64,000 nt of DNA from Acidobacteriota bacterium (lineage in GTDB: Bacteria > Acidobacteriota > Vicinamibacteria > Vicinamibacterales > JAFNAJ01), in NCBI GenBank assembly GCA_023384575.1, contig JAHDVP010000013.1, positions 3,406 to 67,405 of the forward strand. The letters are read 5' to 3'. Positions 1,603 through 39,188 of this stretch are shown here, piece after piece. The position numbers were made by a program, and so were the translations under genes. Every line of letters begins with the position of its first letter. The first letter of the stretch is position 1. A model generated the notes under the pieces. The model did no database searches, was not told where the DNA came from, and saw only the letters and a list, made by a program, of their open reading frames with translations.

Positions 1603-3930
1603 TCAGGGCAAGTTCAGCTGATCGGGCTGGCTGGGCCTGGACACGAGCTGCTGGTACAGCCAGGACGCGACGAGCAGCAGCACGCCGAGGCCGAGGGTGC
1701 TCACGATCCGGTAGACGCGGTCGACCTGCGCGAGGTCGTAGAAGAACACCTTGCCCGTCGTCAGGACGAACAGGCCGATGGCGAAGTACCGCCACGGCGC
1801 GTACGACGTGCGGAGACCGACCGTGACGAGCAGCAGCGCATACGCGGCCCAGGCAATGGAGACGGCGACCTGACGCCGTGCCGCGCCGGCGGTGATCGCG
1901 CCGGCGCCGCCATCGGCGGCCTGCCACGCCGCCAGGTCGAAGTACAGGCCGATCTCGCTCGTCAGGGCGACGACGGTCAGCACGCTCGCGACGACGACGA
2001 GGCCGGCGGTCACGTGACGGGCGCCGGGCGGACGGGGGTCGGCCCTCGCGTGCCACCACGCGACGAGATAGAGCAGCGCGAGCGCGAAAAGCGTGACGCC
2101 GAACCGCACGTTGACGAGCGGCCACGTGCCGACTGCCAGGGCCTGATCGTGCCACTCGACCAGTCGGAGCAGGGCCATCGCTCCGAGCCCCCCCCCGGCC
2201 AGGCGCATCCAGGTGCGGCCGGCGCCGAGTCCCATCCACGCCAGGCCAGCCCCGAGCGCCGCCCAGCCGGTCGCCTGGCCGGCGCCGTCGAAGGTGACGG
2301 CGACGCCGATCGCAGCCAACGCGAAGGACAGCGTCGCCCACTGCAGCATCGCGTCGCGGTGGAGGCGGCTCGCCGCGCCGGCAAGCGCCAGGTGCCAGAG
2401 CGCGAGGACCGCTGCCGCCGGACCCAGCCAGTCGAGCGCGACCGGGCGGACGAGCGAGTCGATCGCGTCGTAGGCCCAGAGGCCATTGCCGTGGATCAGG
2501 ACGATGTCCGCGGCGCCGAGCCGCGTCTCGGCGGGCGGCAGCGATTTCCAGGTGGCCAGGAGGTGCAGGCCGTAGATCGCGCCGAGCGTGACGAGGCCGG
2601 GCCACACCCACGCCGCACCACTCTCCTCCGCCGCCCAGACCGACAGCGGCACGGCCACCGCCGCCCAGCTCGCCAGTCGCAGCCAGGCGTGGCCGGCTCT
2701 GACCGTCAGCGTCACGGCCGCGGCGGAGAACGCGATCAGGTACACCAGCAGCCACGTCCAGGTCGGTGCCTGGGCGAGGTTCGCCAGCGACGCCAGGTGA
2801 TACGCGAGCGGACCCGTCGCGAGAACGACCGCCGCGGCGCGGCCCGCGCTCGTGCCGATTCGACGCGCGTGCCACCACGCGACGACGAACAGCCCGGCGA
2901 GCACCGTGAGGAAGAGCTCGGTCAGTGCCCACTTGGCCGGCGTGTAGTGCGCCGTCGCCCACGCCGCAAACGTCAGGCCCGTCAGGATGAAGCCGACAAC
3001 CGGCAGGGCCGACCACCGGTGGCGCGACGCCAGCCAGATCGCCCCCGCCACGAGGATCGTGACGTAGGTGAAGAGCGTGACCTGCGCATCGCGCGTCCCG
3101 CCGACCAGCATGGGCGTCGCGAACCCGCCGACGAGCGCCGCCATGGCGAGCGCCTGCGCACGCTGACGGTCGCCCACCCAGGCGCCGAGCGCCGTGATGC
3201 CCACCATCACGAGGAAGGCGGCCTCGCGGGTGATGAGCCCGTAGAAGTGATACGTCGCGTAAGAGGTGAGGTACAGCAGGGCAATGCCGCCCCCGACGAC
3301 CACCTGCCCGAAGAAGCGCGCGCCGCGCGCCGCGAAGCGCGTGCCGGCGCCGACGCAGCCGAGACCCGCGAGGGCCCCGAGCGCGACGCGGAGGCCGGGC
3401 GTGATCCACTCGTTGTCGAAGGCGTACTTCAGGAAGAAGCTCGCGCCGACGAGCAGCGTCGCGACGGCCGCGTAGAGCAGCCAGCGCCCCCCCACGCGCG
3501 CCTCGAACGACGGACCGGCGGGCGCCGGCGGTGGTGTCGCGCCAGAGAGCGGCGTAGCGCCCACCGGCGCCGTCCGCGCGTCGGGCGGGGCCACCCTCGG
3601 TGCGGCCGTGACCTCTGGCCCGATGGTCTCGCTCGCCGGAGGGCCGGCGAGCGTCTCGGCGTTCGTGGAGGCGGCCGGCACTGGCGGGGCGGTTGCGGAG
3701 GTCGCGTGCGCCGTGGGCCGTCGGAGGTCGTGACGCGCGGCGCCGGCTGCGGGCCCGGACGCCTCGTGCTCGCTCGTCCGGAGGTGCTCGGCGAGCCGAT
3801 CGAGACGCCGGCCGAGCTCGTCGATCTGGCGCGCCAGGCGGGCCGATCTCACCAGGGAGACAATCGGCAGCCCGATCGCCAGGAGGAAGCCGACGCCGAC
3901 CACAACGAGGCCGATCAGGAGCTCAATCAC
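1603..3930 (-). CDS. DUF2339 family polytopic membrane protein
   Basis: A 775-residue integral membrane protein. The N-terminus has one hydrophobic segment (residues 1-27), then a short coiled coil (RQIDELGRRLDRLAEHL), a Pro/Ala/Thr-rich linker, and from about residue 145 a long series of more than 20 hydrophobic helices opening with VGGRWLLYAAVATLLVGASF. The coiled coil, low-complexity linker and very many helices are the pattern of the DUF2339 family, whose function is not established. The gene is 24 bp after an unknown membrane protein and 59 bp before the HD-GYP regulator, suggesting one transcript. A run of nine G on the coding strand (plus-strand C at 2188-2196) lies inside the reading frame. 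Confidence 0.88.
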   Translation of the reverse strand: MIELLIGLVVVGVGFLLAIGLPIVSLVRSARLARQIDELGRRLDRLAEHLRTSEHEASGPAAGAARHDLRRPTAHATSATAPPVPAASTNAETLAGPPASETIGPEVTAAPRVAPPDARTAPVGATPLSGATPPPAPAGPSFEARVGGRWLLYAAVATLLVGASFFLKYAFDNEWITPGLRVALGALAGLGCVGAGTRFAARGARFFGQVVVGGGIALLYLTSYATYHFYGLITREAAFLVMVGITALGAWVGDRQRAQALAMAALVGGFATPMLVGGTRDAQVTLFTYVTILVAGAIWLASRHRWSALPVVGFILTGLTFAAWATAHYTPAKWALTELFLTVLAGLFVVAWWHARRIGTSAGRAAAVVLATGPLAYHLASLANLAQAPTWTWLLVYLIAFSAAAVTLTVRAGHAWLRLASWAAVAVPLSVWAAEESGAAWVWPGLVTLGAIYGLHLLATWKSLPPAETRLGAADIVLIHGNGLWAYDAIDSLVRPVALDWLGPAAAVLALWHLALAGAASRLHRDAMLQWATLSFALAAIGVAVTFDGAGQATGWAALGAGLAWMGLGAGRTWMRLAGGGLGAMALLRLVEWHDQALAVGTWPLVNVRFGVTLFALALLYLVAWWHARADPRPPGARHVTAGLVVVASVLTVVALTSEIGLYFDLAAWQAADGGAGAITAGAARRQVAVSIAWAAYALLLVTVGLRTSYAPWRYFAIGLFVLTTGKVFFYDLAQVDRVYRIVSTLGLGVLLLVASWLYQQLVSRPSQPDQLNLP

Positions 3931-33419: not shown

Positions 33420-33665
33420 GGACGTGCCTCCTGCGTGGCGCGAACGACTGTCGGTCAGGATAGCGTGGATTGCCGGCGGCCGGCTGGCTGAGGTCGGGAC
33501 CGTCGGGTGTCCGGCGTGCTCTCTGGGTGCGAAAACCGCTGCAGCTTCTGGCGCGGCCCCACCCCTCGCGGACGGCCTCGCGGACGTCGGGAGGCCCCCG
33601 TCCGCCAACCTGTGGCAGAATCGAGGCTCCGCAGACAGGGCGATATGGCGCGAGGAGAACGAAAG

Positions 33666-33956
33666 ATGACGGTCGACGAGCTGAGGGCGACCCTCGGTGA
33701 GGAGGAGCCTCCCGATGGGCTCGACGACGCGCTTGTCGCCCTCTGGCACGAGGCGAAGGGCGACTGGGCGCGGGCCCACGCGGTGGTGCAGGACCTGTCG
33801 TCGCCTGAGGCGGCGCTCGTCCATGCCTACCTTCATCGGAAGGAAGGCGACCTCGCCAACGCACGGTACTGGTATCGCCGCGCGTCGGCCACCGAAGCCA
33901 CTGGCGCGCTCGACGACGAATGGCGGGCCATCGCCGCGGCCCTGCTCGATAGGTGA
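33666..33956 (+). CDS. Small hypothetical protein, helical
   Basis: A 96-residue acidic, mostly helical protein (MTVDELRATLGEEEPPDGLD, then ALVALWHEAKGDWARAHAVV, and HRKEGDLANARYWYRRA). The Trp/Ala helix pairs resemble a tetratricopeptide-like fold, and similar short proteins are widespread in soil bacteria without an assigned role. GAGGAG at 33651-33656 sets the ATG at 33666. The stop is overlapped by the GTG of the next gene (GTGA), implying coupled translation with a thioredoxin-like exported protein. A CAGAAT box some 50 bases upstream could be the -10. Confidence 0.75.
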   Translation: MTVDELRATLGEEEPPDGLDDALVALWHEAKGDWARAHAVVQDLSSPEAALVHAYLHRKEGDLANARYWYRRASATEATGALDDEWRAIAAALLDR

Positions 33957-34636
33957 CGATGGTGACGCGTCGCGTGATGACCCGGCTGGCCGTGACCCTG
34001 ACGGCGATCGCACTGGCGTCCGGCCCTGGGCGTGCGCAGGAGGCGTCGACGCCGGCAGCCGCTGCCGAGCGGCTCGAGCCCGGCCTGCTCGAGCGGCTCT
34101 ACGCGGGCGGGCGGACCTTTGGCGAATTCCTCGACGCCGCGACGGCTCGCCGCGACCAGTGGGTGAGCCACTACGAACGGGGCCAGGCGCTCGACGAGCT
34201 CGTCGAGCGGGCGCGCGCGGTGCCGGGAGCCTGGCGGTTGCTGGTCGTCGCCGTCGATGCCTGCAGCGACTCGGTGGGCACGCTCCCGTATCTGGCGCGG
34301 CTCGATGAAGCCGTCGCCACGCTCGACCTGCGAATCGTCGATCGGGAAGCCGGCAAGCCGATCGCCGAGGCCCGCCGCAGCCCGGACGGCCGCGCGACGA
34401 CGCCGACGCTCGTGCTGCTCGATGGCGACGGCCGGGAACGTGGATGCTGGGTCGAACAGCCGGCCGGGCTCCAGACCTGGTGGCTCACGGTTGACCGCGC
34501 GAAGCAGCGGGAGCTGCTCTCGAAGAAGATGGCGTGGTACGCCGACGACGCCGGCGTGTCGACGGTGCGGGAGGTGGTGGAGATGCTCGAAGCCGCGGCG
34601 GCCGGGCGTACGATCTGCCCGCCGCTCACGCGGTAG
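33953..34636 (+). CDS. Exported thioredoxin-family-like protein
   Basis: A 227-residue protein with a signal peptide (about 1-29, TLTAIALASGPGRAQ). The mature sequence has a strand LLVVAVDACSDSVGTLPYLA followed by RIVDREAG and ATTPTLVLLDGDG (cis-Pro position), the layout of a thioredoxin fold with a single Cys in place of CxxC. It may bind rather than oxidise thiols. The GTG start overlaps the preceding stop by four bases; an ATG at 33959 is an alternative. It ends immediately before the palindromic element at 34638. Confidence 0.75.
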   Translation: MTMVTRRVMTRLAVTLTAIALASGPGRAQEASTPAAAAERLEPGLLERLYAGGRTFGEFLDAATARRDQWVSHYERGQALDELVERARAVPGAWRLLVVAVDACSDSVGTLPYLARLDEAVATLDLRIVDREAGKPIAEARRSPDGRATTPTLVLLDGDGRERGCWVEQPAGLQTWWLTVDRAKQRELLSKKMAWYADDAGVSTVREVVEMLEAAAAGRTICPPLTR

Positions 34637-34637
34637 C

Positions 34638-34725
34638 GGAAAAGGGGACACTCATCTTTTTCCCCGGTCGCCCAGCCGACATGTCGCCGGACCGACAACC
34701 GGAAAAGGTGAGTGTCCCCTTTTCC
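34638..34725. repeat. 88-bp REP/RAYT-like palindromic element
   Basis: The sequence is an imperfect palindrome centred on the 10-bp perfect palindrome CGACATGTCG (34677-34686). The outer 25 bases (34638-34662) pair with 34701-34725 without a gap, only two G-U pairs, and begin GGAAAAGGGGACACTCA. Such GGGGACA-type arms flanked by A and T runs are known around REP-associated tyrosine transposases and as dispersed palindromes. It fits exactly between the stop codons of two convergent genes, so it can also end transcription in both directions. No transposase gene is present in the window. Confidence 0.75.
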
Positions 34726-34982
34726 TAGCCCTCGAGGCGGTCGACGAGATCGACGTAGTCGCGCATTGCCTGTTCCCGCGACGTGCCCTGCAAGGCCGCC
34801 CAGGCGTCGTACTTCGCGCCAGCGACGAAGTCGAACATCCCCGGACGGTCGCCCGAGACATCGCCCGACGTCGCCTGTTTGTAGAGCGCGTACAACCGGA
34901 GCAACGTGTCGTTGTCCGGACGGGACGGCAGCTGCTTCGATCGAGCGGATGCCGCTTCGAACTGCTGGACCAGGTCGGTCAT
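34725..34982 (-). CDS. Acyl-CoA-binding protein
   Basis: An 85-residue four-helix acyl-CoA-binding protein. The family signature LPSRPDNDTLLRLYALYKQA is followed by TSGD, RPGMFDFVAGAKYDAW and YVDLVDRLE, including the Tyr and Lys that hold the CoA. It buffers long-chain acyl-CoA in the cytoplasm. An upstream TTG (34994) could extend it by four residues, but GGAGGG before the ATG favours 34982. It is convergent with the thioredoxin-like gene, and its stop codon touches the palindromic repeat. Confidence 0.92.
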   Translation of the reverse strand: MTDLVQQFEAASARSKQLPSRPDNDTLLRLYALYKQATSGDVSGDRPGMFDFVAGAKYDAWAALQGTSREQAMRDYVDLVDRLEG

Positions 34983-35035
34983 GTCGCCCTCCAACCCTTG
35001 ATTCTGCCTCGTTCCGGTGCCCGCGGTGCCGCCCG

Positions 35036-38000
35036 TCAGGTCATGGACACCGCGACCGGCTCACCCCACAGATACCCTTGGCCGTAGCGGACGCCGAGGT
35101 CGACGAGCAGTGCCACCTCTTCCTCGCTTTCGATTCCCTCGGCGATGACCAGCGCGCCGAGCGTGTCGGCGACCTCGACGAGGCGCTTCAGCGTACGCAC
35201 GCGCCCCCGCTCGTGCCCAATCCCGGCGACCCAGCGCCGGTCGAGCTTCACCACCTCCGGTTCGAGGAGCACCAGGCTCTCGAGCGAGGTGCGGCCGAAG
35301 CCGACGTCGTCGATGGCCACGCGCAGGTCGGCCCGACGCAACGCCGCGACCGCGTCGCGGATGGTCGACGGGTTGCCCAGCAGCTGTTGTTCGGAGAGCT
35401 CGATGCAGTACTGGTGGCGCGTCGCTGGTTCCGGAAAGAGGCGGAGCAGCTGCTCGACGGGCGTCTCGAGCAGGGTCGACGGGTAGAGATTCAGGTGGTG
35501 CCAGCCCTCGCCCGACTGCGCCGCGGCCCGAAGGCACGCGCTCAGACATCGCAGGTCGAGGGCCGAGAGCAGGCCGTCCTCGCCGGCGCGCCGGAAGAAG
35601 TCCTGCGGCAGGTTCAACGGACCGTCCGGGCCGCGTGACAGGAACTCGTGTCCCGCGACCTGTCGCTCGACGAGCCGCATGATCGGCTGCCGCGCCACCG
35701 TGATGACGTCCGGTGCCCGGAGCAGGTGCGCGACGTCCCGCGGGCCGGTGGGTGATTCGATGGTCGCGGTCGAGGTGGCCAGCGTGATGCGGTTCTTGCC
35801 CCTCACCTTGCTGTCCTGCAGGGCCACCCGGGCGTTCCTGAGGATGTCGTCGATCGATCCCGTGTCGACGTCAACCGGCGTCACCGCCAGGCTCACGGTG
35901 AGCGGCACCATGTCCTGCCCGACGTGAATGCGCTCGCCGACGCCCGCGAGTCGCAGCCGGTCGGCGACGAGCGCGGCCTCCATGAGCCGTGTCTCTGGCA
36001 GCAGCACCAGGAACTCGTCACCCCCGATGCGGGCCATCCGATCGGTGGGCCGCAGCGAGTCGGACAGGCCGCGCGCCAGCGTGGCGAGCACCCGATCGCC
36101 AGTCGCGTGTCCGAAGCGGTCGTTGATCTGCTTGAAGTCGTCGCAGTCGATGAAGATGGCCGACAGGGTCGACGCGTGGCGCCGGGCCCGCTCGAGCTCG
36201 TCGGTGAGGTACTCGGCGAACCCCCGCCGGTTGAGGAGTCCGGTCAGCGGATCGACCATGGCCAGCTCGCGCAGGCTGATCTCGGCGAGCTTGCGATCGG
36301 TGATGTCGATGTGCGACACGACGACCCCGCCCGACCCGGTAATGCGCGAGGCGTGCATCAGGTACCACCGCTGGTCGTTCAAGGAGTGGCAGGGGTACTC
36401 GAGCACGTACTGGTCGATCTCGTCGGCCAGCAGCCGTTCGAGGCCCTGGCGCGCCTCGTGTCCTTCGCTGTTCGGCGGGAGCCGGTGCGGCGCGCACACC
36501 TCGAGGTAGTTGGCTCCCACACCGATCGACGCGTGCACGGAGCCGCCGTTCTCGGCGGCGAAGCGCTCCCACGCGGCGTTGACCATGATGATCGTGCCTC
36601 GCCGGTCGAGCATGGCGACGTGCTGCGGCATCGAATCGAGTACTTTCTGGGTCCGCTCGTTCGCCTCGGCGAGCGACGTCACGTCGATGAAGCTGACGAC
36701 GACGCCGGTGGGGCGGGTGGAGCGCGTCAGGTAGGGTGACATCCTCACCAGTACGTGCCGTCCGCGTTCCGTCGTCATGGGCCGTTCGGCCGGCTGCCCG
36801 TGGAGGAGCACGGCGCGGCAGTCGGTGACGAACGACTCGCCGCCGAAGTGCATCGCGAGGTGGTCGACCGGGCGGCCGACGTCACGCTCGAGCAGGCTGA
36901 CGTACGACGACGCCGACGGCGTGAACTTCCTGACCGTCAGCTGGTCGTCGAGCAGCAGCGTGCCAATGCTCGTGCTCCGCAGGATGTTGTCGATGTCGTT
37001 GTTGAGCTCGATCAGTTCGGCGATCTTCCGTTCGTGCTCGGCATTGACGGTGTACAACTCTTCGTTGACCGCCTGCAACTCCTCGTTGGTGCTCTGGAGC
37101 TCCTCGTTCGACGAGGTGAGCTCCTCGTTGATCGCCTGGAGCTCCTCGTTCGACGTCTCGAGCTCCTCCACCATGGCCTGGAGGTTCTCGCGGGAGTGCT
37201 GCAGCTCCTGCTGCAGATCGGCGAGCTGGCGTTCGGTCTCGGCGCCCATGTCGATGAGCGCCGTCTCGGGGCCCGGCGCGCCGGCCGCCGCACCCGGCTC
37301 GAAGACGACGATGGCGAGGCGACGCCCGAGGACGGTGTCGATGAGCGGCATGAGCCGCATGCCGATCGACCCGCTGCCGGTCTCGGAACGGATCCCCGTG
37401 TACCGCCGCTCCCGATCCTCGCGGATGACTCGAGGCACGCCGGCCGCCGCGACCACCGAGAGCGCGCGAGGCAGCATCGTGAGCAGGTTCAGGTTCGCCT
37501 GTCCGGTGGGGATCTTCATGTAGGGAGCGACGTCACCGAACACGTGCAGCAGGCGGAAGCTCTCGTCGACGAGCACCGCCGCGGGTGCGTACGCCTCGAG
37601 CAGGACCCCCGTCGCCGACTCGACCACTCGCGAATGCTGCGAGCGCGGCAGCCCGTCGCTGGCGACGTGCGCGGGCCGTGGAGCCAGCGGCTCGCGGGCG
37701 AACATCGCCGCCACCGGCCGGTCGCCGATGGCCCGGTAGATGCGCAGCCGGCCGTCGATCGGCTCGAACGCATCCGAGCGGTCGCCCACCGTCTCGCTCG
37801 TGCCGAGCACCAGCGTGGCGCCGCGTTTGAGCGCGAAACGAAACGCGGCGAGGGCGCGCTCCTGCAGCGTCTGATCCAGGTAGATCAGCAGGTTGCGGCA
37901 CGAGACGAGCGAGACCCGGGTGAACGGCGGGTCGCTCACGAGGTTGTGCTGCGCGAGGACCACGAGCTGCCGCAGCTCCCGCCGCACGACGTAGTGATCC

Positions 38001-39163
38001 TCCTTCCACTCGAAGAACCGCGCCAGTCGGGGCGCCGAGACGTCCTGGGCGATCGACGGACCGTAGATGCCCGCCGACGCCACCTCGAGCGCCGCCTTGT
38101 CCATGTCCGTCGCGAAGATTCTCACGTCCAGCGTGCGCGCCGAGCGCTCCATCGCCTCGCTCAGCAGCATGCCCACCGTGTAGGCCTCCTCGCCCGTCGC
38201 GCACCCCGCGACCCACACGCGCAGCGGCTGATCGGCCGGCGCCTGTTCGACGAGCGGCAGCAGCACGTGTTCCTGCAGGTGCGTCCACACGTCGGGGTCG
38301 CGGAAGAAGCGGGTCACGCTGATGAGCAGCTCCTTCAGCAGGAGGTCGACCTCGGTCGAGGAGCTGCGGGCCAGGCGCAGGTACGCCTGCAGGTCCTCGC
38401 TCTCGGTCGCCGCGATGCGTCGGGCCACCCGCCTCAGCACCGTGTTGCGCTTGTAGTGCGAGAAGTCGACCGTGGTCGCCTGCGTGACGAGCGCCATCAA
38501 CTGCGCGTACGCGTCTGCCTCCGTCGCCGGGTCCTCGCGGTGATCGAGGAAGACTCGCAGCAGCAGCGGGTCGCGCACCGCCCGCCCGACGAGGTCGGGC
38601 ATCTGGGCGGGGGGCAGCACCGCGTCGACGAGCCCCGTGGAGATGGCGCTGCGCGGCATGCCGTCGAACCGGGCCGACGCCGCGTCCTGCACGAACACGT
38701 GGCCGCCGCCGGCCTTGATCGCCCGCACGCCGCGCATGCCGTCGCTGCCCGTGCCCGACAGCACCACGCCGATGCTGCGGGCGCCCTGGTGCTTCGCCAG
38801 CGACTCGAAGAACAGGTCGATCGGCAGGTTCAGACTCGAGCCGCCGCTGCGAGCCACGAGGCGCAGGCGCCCGCCCTCGATCACCAGGTTGTTCTTCGCG
38901 TCGTTGAGGTACACATGGTTCGGTTCGACCGCCAGACCGTCGGTGGCGCGGCTCACCGGCATCGGCGTGTGCCGGGCCAGCAGTTCGGCCATCAGGCTCT
39001 TGTGGCCGGGCGAGAGGTGCTGCACCACGACGAACGCGCACCCGACGTCACCGGGCATCCTGTCGAAGAACTGCTCCAGGGCCTCGAGGCCGCCGGCCGA
39101 CGCGCCGAGTCCCACGACGAAGAACGGAAGGCTGGAGGCGGCCTCGTGACGGTCGTCGTGCAT
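35036..39163 (-). CDS. CheB-CheR-PAS-GGDEF-EAL fusion signalling protein
   Basis: A protein of about 1375 residues. Order: CheB methylesterase (about 10-190; Ser in GLGASAGG, His in VQHLSPGH, Asp in GTGSDGMRG), CheR methyltransferase (200-455; VTRFFRDPD, VAGCATGEEAYTVG, CRNLLIYLDQ), a long coiled coil of ELETSNEELQAINEELTSSN type (650-730), two PAS domains, GGDEF (RIGGDEFLVLLPE, near 1048) with an RxxD I-site exactly five residues upstream, and EAL (EFLSR for EALLR, IELSE, IDDVGFGRTSLESL, KLDRRW, AEGIES, GQGY). All key active-site residues appear present. It should link methylation-type sensing with c-di-GMP synthesis and breakdown. ATG at 39163 is chosen; a TTG at 39181 is possible. Confidence 0.93.
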   Translation of the reverse strand: MHDDRHEAASSLPFFVVGLGASAGGLEALEQFFDRMPGDVGCAFVVVQHLSPGHKSLMAELLARHTPMPVSRATDGLAVEPNHVYLNDAKNNLVIEGGRLRLVARSGGSSLNLPIDLFFESLAKHQGARSIGVVLSGTGSDGMRGVRAIKAGGGHVFVQDAASARFDGMPRSAISTGLVDAVLPPAQMPDLVGRAVRDPLLLRVFLDHREDPATEADAYAQLMALVTQATTVDFSHYKRNTVLRRVARRIAATESEDLQAYLRLARSSSTEVDLLLKELLISVTRFFRDPDVWTHLQEHVLLPLVEQAPADQPLRVWVAGCATGEEAYTVGMLLSEAMERSARTLDVRIFATDMDKAALEVASAGIYGPSIAQDVSAPRLARFFEWKEDHYVVRRELRQLVVLAQHNLVSDPPFTRVSLVSCRNLLIYLDQTLQERALAAFRFALKRGATLVLGTSETVGDRSDAFEPIDGRLRIYRAIGDRPVAAMFAREPLAPRPAHVASDGLPRSQHSRVVESATGVLLEAYAPAAVLVDESFRLLHVFGDVAPYMKIPTGQANLNLLTMLPRALSVVAAAGVPRVIREDRERRYTGIRSETGSGSIGMRLMPLIDTVLGRRLAIVVFEPGAAAGAPGPETALIDMGAETERQLADLQQELQHSRENLQAMVEELETSNEELQAINEELTSSNEELQSTNEELQAVNEELYTVNAEHERKIAELIELNNDIDNILRSTSIGTLLLDDQLTVRKFTPSASSYVSLLERDVGRPVDHLAMHFGGESFVTDCRAVLLHGQPAERPMTTERGRHVLVRMSPYLTRSTRPTGVVVSFIDVTSLAEANERTQKVLDSMPQHVAMLDRRGTIIMVNAAWERFAAENGGSVHASIGVGANYLEVCAPHRLPPNSEGHEARQGLERLLADEIDQYVLEYPCHSLNDQRWYLMHASRITGSGGVVVSHIDITDRKLAEISLRELAMVDPLTGLLNRRGFAEYLTDELERARRHASTLSAIFIDCDDFKQINDRFGHATGDRVLATLARGLSDSLRPTDRMARIGGDEFLVLLPETRLMEAALVADRLRLAGVGERIHVGQDMVPLTVSLAVTPVDVDTGSIDDILRNARVALQDSKVRGKNRITLATSTATIESPTGPRDVAHLLRAPDVITVARQPIMRLVERQVAGHEFLSRGPDGPLNLPQDFFRRAGEDGLLSALDLRCLSACLRAAAQSGEGWHHLNLYPSTLLETPVEQLLRLFPEPATRHQYCIELSEQQLLGNPSTIRDAVAALRRADLRVAIDDVGFGRTSLESLVLLEPEVVKLDRRWVAGIGHERGRVRTLKRLVEVADTLGALVIAEGIESEEEVALLVDLGVRYGQGYLWGEPVAVSMT

Positions 39164-39188
39164 GTCGGCCGCCGGATGCAAAACGTGA

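Follow-up and report, generated by a model that had tools for sequence, protein, structure and literature searches.

The window analysed here is a 64-kb stretch (C13:3406–67405) of the 5.89-Mb, 112-contig draft genome of an Acidobacteriota bacterium (G000). Direct reading confirms an 88-base palindrome at 34638–34725, where a first-pass annotation made from the sequence alone had set it between two convergent stop codons. The upstream gene (33953–34636, plus strand), encoding a Thioredoxin_9 protein (PF14595), ends with TAG at 34634–34636, one base ahead of the element, and the convergent downstream gene (34725–34994, minus strand), encoding an acyl-CoA-binding protein (ACBP; PF00887), has a stop codon, CTA on the plus strand at 34725–34727, that shares one base with the end of the element. 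TAGC stands as a direct repeat of four bases against both ends of the palindrome (34634–34637 and 34726–34729), overlapping the stop codons. ACBP homologues are present in three genomes of the same family (G001–G003); a search of about 1.5 kb on either side of them found no thioredoxin gene and none of three further neighbouring genes. Farther along, the minus strand (35036–39181) encodes a 1381-residue protein in which CheB methylesterase, CheR methyltransferase, PAS, GGDEF and EAL domains share a single chain.

The element is identical to its own reverse complement at 68 of 88 positions, with a 10-bp palindrome, CGACATGTCG, at its exact centre (34677–34686), as the annotation had described. 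The 25 paired arm bases also claimed there hold for the plus-strand RNA, which folds with 25 consecutive pairs including G–U pairs (−51.3 kcal/mol; z = −8.5), and do not hold for the DNA, in which the perfect inverted repeats are the outer 17 bases (GGAAAAGGGGACACTCA). Folding exceeds that of shuffled sequences as RNA (z = −8.5 and −8.8) and as DNA (z = −8.0). Within the window no other exact inverted repeat of at least 14 bases has arm starts up to 200 bases apart, and the 17-mer, with up to three mismatches allowed, matches only the two arms (shuffles, mean 0.01). An Rfam search of 33600–35400 returned three sub-threshold matches, two of them to microRNA families on the hairpin, which we took as chance.

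Judged by its inverted repeat, its copies and its fold, the palindrome is a non-autonomous, REPIN-like dimer of two terminal-inverted-repeat (TIR) units of about 41 bases each, inverted and joined tail to tail, with no strand assigned to the whole. The left unit (34638–34681, plus strand) carries a foot, AAAAGGGGACACTCATCTTTT, at 34640–34660 with one mismatch to the consensus, followed by an inner stem, GTCG/CGAC, in which 34667–34670 pairs with 34677–34680; the right unit (34682–34725, minus strand) has the foot AAAAGGGGACACTCACCTTTT with no mismatch and the same inner stem. The central palindrome forms the junction between the two inner hairpins, and an identical junction is found in a second dimer, on contig C40.

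Copies had been predicted elsewhere in the genome, and a search of all contigs with the 21-base arm unit finds 30 at up to two mismatches and 32 at up to three, with none for the reversed pattern; GGGGACACTC likewise occurs 29 times versus six for its reversal. The annotation had set a unique element against a mobile repeat; uniqueness proved false, with about thirty copies in the whole genome. At up to two mismatches, the 30 units make up four inverted dimers (on C3, C13, C35 and C40, that on C13 being the window element), one pair around a transposase gene and 20 single units that have no long stem. Each unit consists of the foot AAAAGGGGACACTCACCTTTT, an imperfect palindrome in its own right, followed by a variable stretch of six bases and then by a second hairpin with the consensus GTCGG-N4-CCGAC. 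In five units (C1:222234, C24:39755, C62:18926, C4:173431 and C77:11644) GGGGACAGTC replaces GGGGACACTC; these perhaps represent an older class.

The inner stem stands at a fixed register, mostly as GTCGG/CCGAC in G000 and often as GTCAA/TTGAC in a relative, G002. Across the 58 units of both genomes, 74.5% of cells pair, compared with 24.5–48.3% when the register is slid by one to four columns; all 500 shuffles stay below the observed level, a pooled signal that arises partly from joining two genomes. The G002 units alone exceed all 500 shuffles; those of G000 alone do not exceed the deal-out control (reached by 221 of 500 shuffles), because their stem hardly varies. A perfect inner stem of at least five pairs, sought anywhere in a 32-base stretch of each unit, is present in 10 of 30 G000 units (shuffles, 12%) and in 8 of 28 G002 units (shuffles, 10%).

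The genome contains a single Y1_Tnp match by profile search, a 230-residue transposase of the Y1/RAYT type encoded at C28:63547–64239 (L030:1462–2154). The arm unit brackets this gene in inverted orientation (L030:1242, plus; 2153, minus), the plus-strand foot ending about 200 bases upstream and the minus-strand copy overlapping the 3′ end of the gene, so that the predicted Y1_Tnp/RAYT gene flanked by the arm is indeed there. The protein has the motifs NHWH and YVEGNP (the Y-motif pattern used in our motif scan missed some rows), the solved structure that it matches best is E. coli TnpAREP (4er8; E = 2.9 × 10−5), and it scores 66.7 bits against NF047646, the NCBIfam model for REP-associated tyrosine transposases, below the 80-bit cut-off. 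In four transposases Pfam, run at E up to 5, reports Y1_Tnp alone and no C-terminal helix–turn–helix; a sequence profile can miss such a domain. The C-terminal tails of four transposases (L061, L062, L063 and L091) carry two RGRP motifs separated by about 22 residues, which might contact the A/T tracts of the unit.

Homologues of the transposase occur in 41 of 60 genomes, G000 included (E up to 0.001), and at 24 of 35 homologue loci, 19 of the 22 loci from the best-scoring genomes among them, an inverted repeat spanning the gene exceeds 10 mononucleotide shuffles; G044 fails because one unit lies more than 450 bases away. The degenerate pattern AAAAGGGGACANNCACCTTTTT, at up to two mismatches, matches in nine of the 60 genomes: 31 times in G000, 28 in G002, 34 in G026, 48 in G044 and at least 27 in G037, with one or two matches each in G003, G005, G047 and G053, near-palindromic units such as those of G026 being partly counted on both strands. 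G002, whose transposase is 71% identical to that of G000, has repeats of the GGGGACACTC type, whereas those of G044 are mostly GGGGACAGCC and those of G026 mostly GGGGACAGTCCCC; in each of G002, G026 and G044 the unit next to the resident transposase is of the most frequent type in that genome. The exception is G037, which has a related type among the matches listed yet only a distant Y1 homologue.

Patterns taken solely from the flank of a transposase gene behave in the same way. The G017 flank pattern occurs 18 times in G017, four times in its congener G027 and in none of the other 58 of the 60 genomes; that of G022 occurs 57 times in G022 and in none of 11 others, a set that does not include its sister G032; and that of G035 gives 46 forward and 42 reverse matches in G035, a double count due to its near-palindromic form, with no match in 11 others. 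The flank of the transposase thus predicts the dispersed family of its genome, which supports a correspondence of one transposase to one repeat family.

No TIR site common to 32 loci of G000 and 15 of G002 was seen among the matches listed, and comparison of their flanks gave three weak protein matches that, by eye, do not lie at the unit. Comparing the flanks of TIR loci in G000 with those in G002 and G003 gave no shared site but one, a stretch identical at 3,021 of 3,021 bases between contig C7 of G000 (L044) and C57 of G003 (L114), genomes of different genera. This is probably one contig binned into two assemblies, and the copy was therefore not treated as independent. From the dispersion of the units we infer that the G000 family has been mobile; among its copies, that in the window included, neither a presence/absence pair nor a fresh insertion was observed.

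Could the palindrome instead be a bidirectional transcription terminator common to the two convergent genes, its copies being terminators of common descent? Its exact placement between two convergent stop codons and the A4/T4 tracts that flank a strong hairpin on both strands would suit that role; a terminator scan of 33900–35400 reported one site, away from the element, with a loop limit that excludes so long a hairpin. However, the identical unit type brackets a transposase gene, 20 of the 30 units are single and have no long stem, and 9 of 14 examined dimers of G022 show a wobble phase that suggests a position within a reading frame. Moreover, among 27 places in G000, the 23 with a usable setting by home-made, codon-based gene calls comprise 12 unidirectional (one overlapping the end of a frame), six convergent and five divergent; the other four are a contig end, the transposase locus and two weak matches inside frames. 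As convergent gaps are not in excess, the terminator-like position of the window copy is not typical, and we regard a terminator origin of the family as unlikely.

Membership of the canonical GTAG-type REP/REPIN class is less probable still. An inverted doublet with invariant 17-base ends, a hairpin-forming spacer and a RAYT in the genome is what the portion of the REPIN report dealing with their structure describes (PMC3116915), yet the unit consensus contains neither a GT[AG]G nor a CGTC foot, its core being GGGGACAC; the foot refutes this membership while the REPIN-like organisation remains. Least probable of all, and very improbable, is a MITE mobilized by some unrelated DDE transposase, with the Y1 gene as its passenger. 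Terminal inverted repeats do surround a gene, and the TAGC repeat adjoining both ends of the window copy could be read in its favour, but no such repeat was seen by eye at the ends of the three other dimers of G000, and the match of flank to family tracks the Y1 gene in genome after genome.

We conclude that the palindrome is very probably a non-autonomous TIR dimer of the RAYT-type (TIRYT) HuH/tyrosine transposase that G000 itself encodes elsewhere. As a working model, the transposase would recognize the GGGGACACTC foot together with the small hairpins next to it in single-stranded DNA, cut, and then move or copy the unit, such that the genome would accumulate dispersed single TIRs and inverted dimers. 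The window copy would have moved at some time in the past and come to rest between two convergent genes; the ends of transcripts there may also be affected by its long hairpin. A previously unnoticed palindrome is thereby placed in a described but little-studied transposase–repeat system, and the success of flank-based predictions in several genomes indicates that transposases of this kind maintain dispersed families of repeats of their own.

Empty sites were sought in a genus (g21) with seven genomes, from another family of the same order, to which the sister species G022 and G032 belong. Of 24 dimer elements in G022, 14 have both flanks in the part of G032 that was read (about 1.5 Mb of 3.2 Mb), the flanks being 76–93% identical; the ten dropped from the count comprise nine with no flank match and one with matches that do not join. 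At 12 of these 14 sites the same place in G032 is occupied by a unit of a class proper to that genome (GACGTCGGGAGG or GACGTCGGGTGTC, with 0–4 mismatches of 22), as both arms in eight and a single arm in four (C1, C11, C13:30276 and C8). Eleven of the 12 differ from the G022 class by 8–11 mismatches, and at the twelfth (C24, a cluster) there is a match to that class with five. Of the remaining two sites, one (C10) is degenerate, with six mismatches, and one (C12:77733) is empty, with about 52 bases missing; shifted controls gave no match with up to five mismatches to the G032 classes in 84 trials.

The lengths at 11 of the 13 occupied sites differ between the two genomes by a multiple of three and the wobble phase is equal on both sides at 9 of 14, on which basis many G022 sites appear to lie inside reading frames. 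In-frame palindromes of G022 (L157–L178) often encode a peptide like MSSEAI..IASELI, with a nearly identical peptide on the reverse strand. Another dispersed repeat, about 75 bases long (L178:1576–1650, on C13 of G022), has dozens of matches in G022 and also in G032.

The transposase locus itself is syntenic in the two species: its flanks share 82.6% and 88.1% identity over 1.37 and 1.43 kb. The transposases, by comparison, share 56% of 175 aligned residues, and their flanking repeat classes differ. Within the genus the G032-type pattern occurs 66 times in G032, 55 in G060, 42 in G063, 28 in G061, five in G050, seven in G022 and not in G062, whereas G022-type dimers, searched with one 12-kb query, match dozens of other places in G022 and, across the six other genomes, give a single weak match (G062:C121). 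From this distribution G022 seems to be the genome that switched class, with a few relics left. The picture in G032 is itself composite: 10 of its 12 sites are nearer to the GGGAGG class, yet GGGTGTC is what flanks its transposase, and neither of its classes occurs at two additional Y1 loci (L333 and L335).

Together, different classes at the same sites, a syntenic locus and diverged transposases suggest, at the level of sequence comparison, that existing copies were rewritten in place. Rival accounts of this pattern are ordinary gene conversion and insertion that recurs at the same preferred sites. More tentatively, and as a possibility we rate below even chances, the TIRYT systems of this order might both spread repeats and rewrite existing copies in place, so that divergence or exchange of the transposase at its fixed locus would convert old sites, many of them within reading frames, to another class, usually in both arms of a dimer, and the window palindrome would be a slot in a genome-wide array matched to the resident transposase. 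A literature search joining REP repeats with concerted evolution returned only unrelated work, and we do not claim such rewriting as unreported. If in-place switching holds, it bears on the coupled change of repeat class and transposase, which is still debated for REPs, and the G022/G032 sites would offer a natural set for testing that co-change.

Among known systems, the closest are the TIRtrons, in which TIRYT genes are flanked by TIRs, some sharing the motif GGGGWSAS, with moderate families of singles and dimers, one of them acidobacterial, in the sections that describe them (Di Nocera, De Gregorio and Rocco 2013, PMC3733652). As there, a Y1 transposase lies between inverted repeats with GGGGWSAS, present here in the arm core GGGGACAC, and with no GTAG foot; the TIR overlaps the 3′ end of the gene, as in some of the published examples; and singles and dimers are dispersed. 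The window element fits this description and lacks the GTAG foot of canonical REPs: the annotation's REP/RAYT-like mobile repeat stands as regards a RAYT-type gene bracketed by the unit and gives way, as regards the repeat, to the GGGGWSAS TIR type. Beyond what those sections cover, the match of transposase to TIR is traced here across the relatives of one order, with copy counts in the tens.

TnpAY1 subclass 2.1, equated with RAYT group 1 of Bertels 2017, probably corresponds to TIRYT, with 20 of 26 Di Nocera examples falling there (Quentin 2018, PMC6006769). The proteins studied here resemble that subclass, as the relevant passages present it, in length (about 230–240 residues), in the NHxH and Y---NP motifs and in a C-terminal extension, and differ in the middle HuH residue, a tryptophan outside the class 2 residues listed there, and in the lack of a helix–turn–helix domain by Pfam at E up to 5. 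Those passages also report no REP-like sequences near subclass 2.1 genes, whereas the flanking units here belong to dispersed, partly hairpin-forming families. REPINs, in the corresponding part of their description, are inverted doublets with invariant ends, a variable spacer, a predicted long hairpin and a dedicated RAYT (Bertels and Rainey 2011, PMC3116915); the window element shares the inverted doublet, invariant ends, hairpin and a transposase in the genome, but has another foot sequence, and singles outnumber dimers in its family (20 versus four plus the transposase pair). Finally, the REP orthoswitch, as set out in the text bearing on it, concerns orthologous RAYT loci with different flanking repeat classes in related strains (Nunvar 2013, PMC3686654), and the G022 and G032 transposase loci are alike in being syntenic with different flanking classes; whereas in that model a new class spreads as the old decays, G022 and G032 hold different classes at the same sites.
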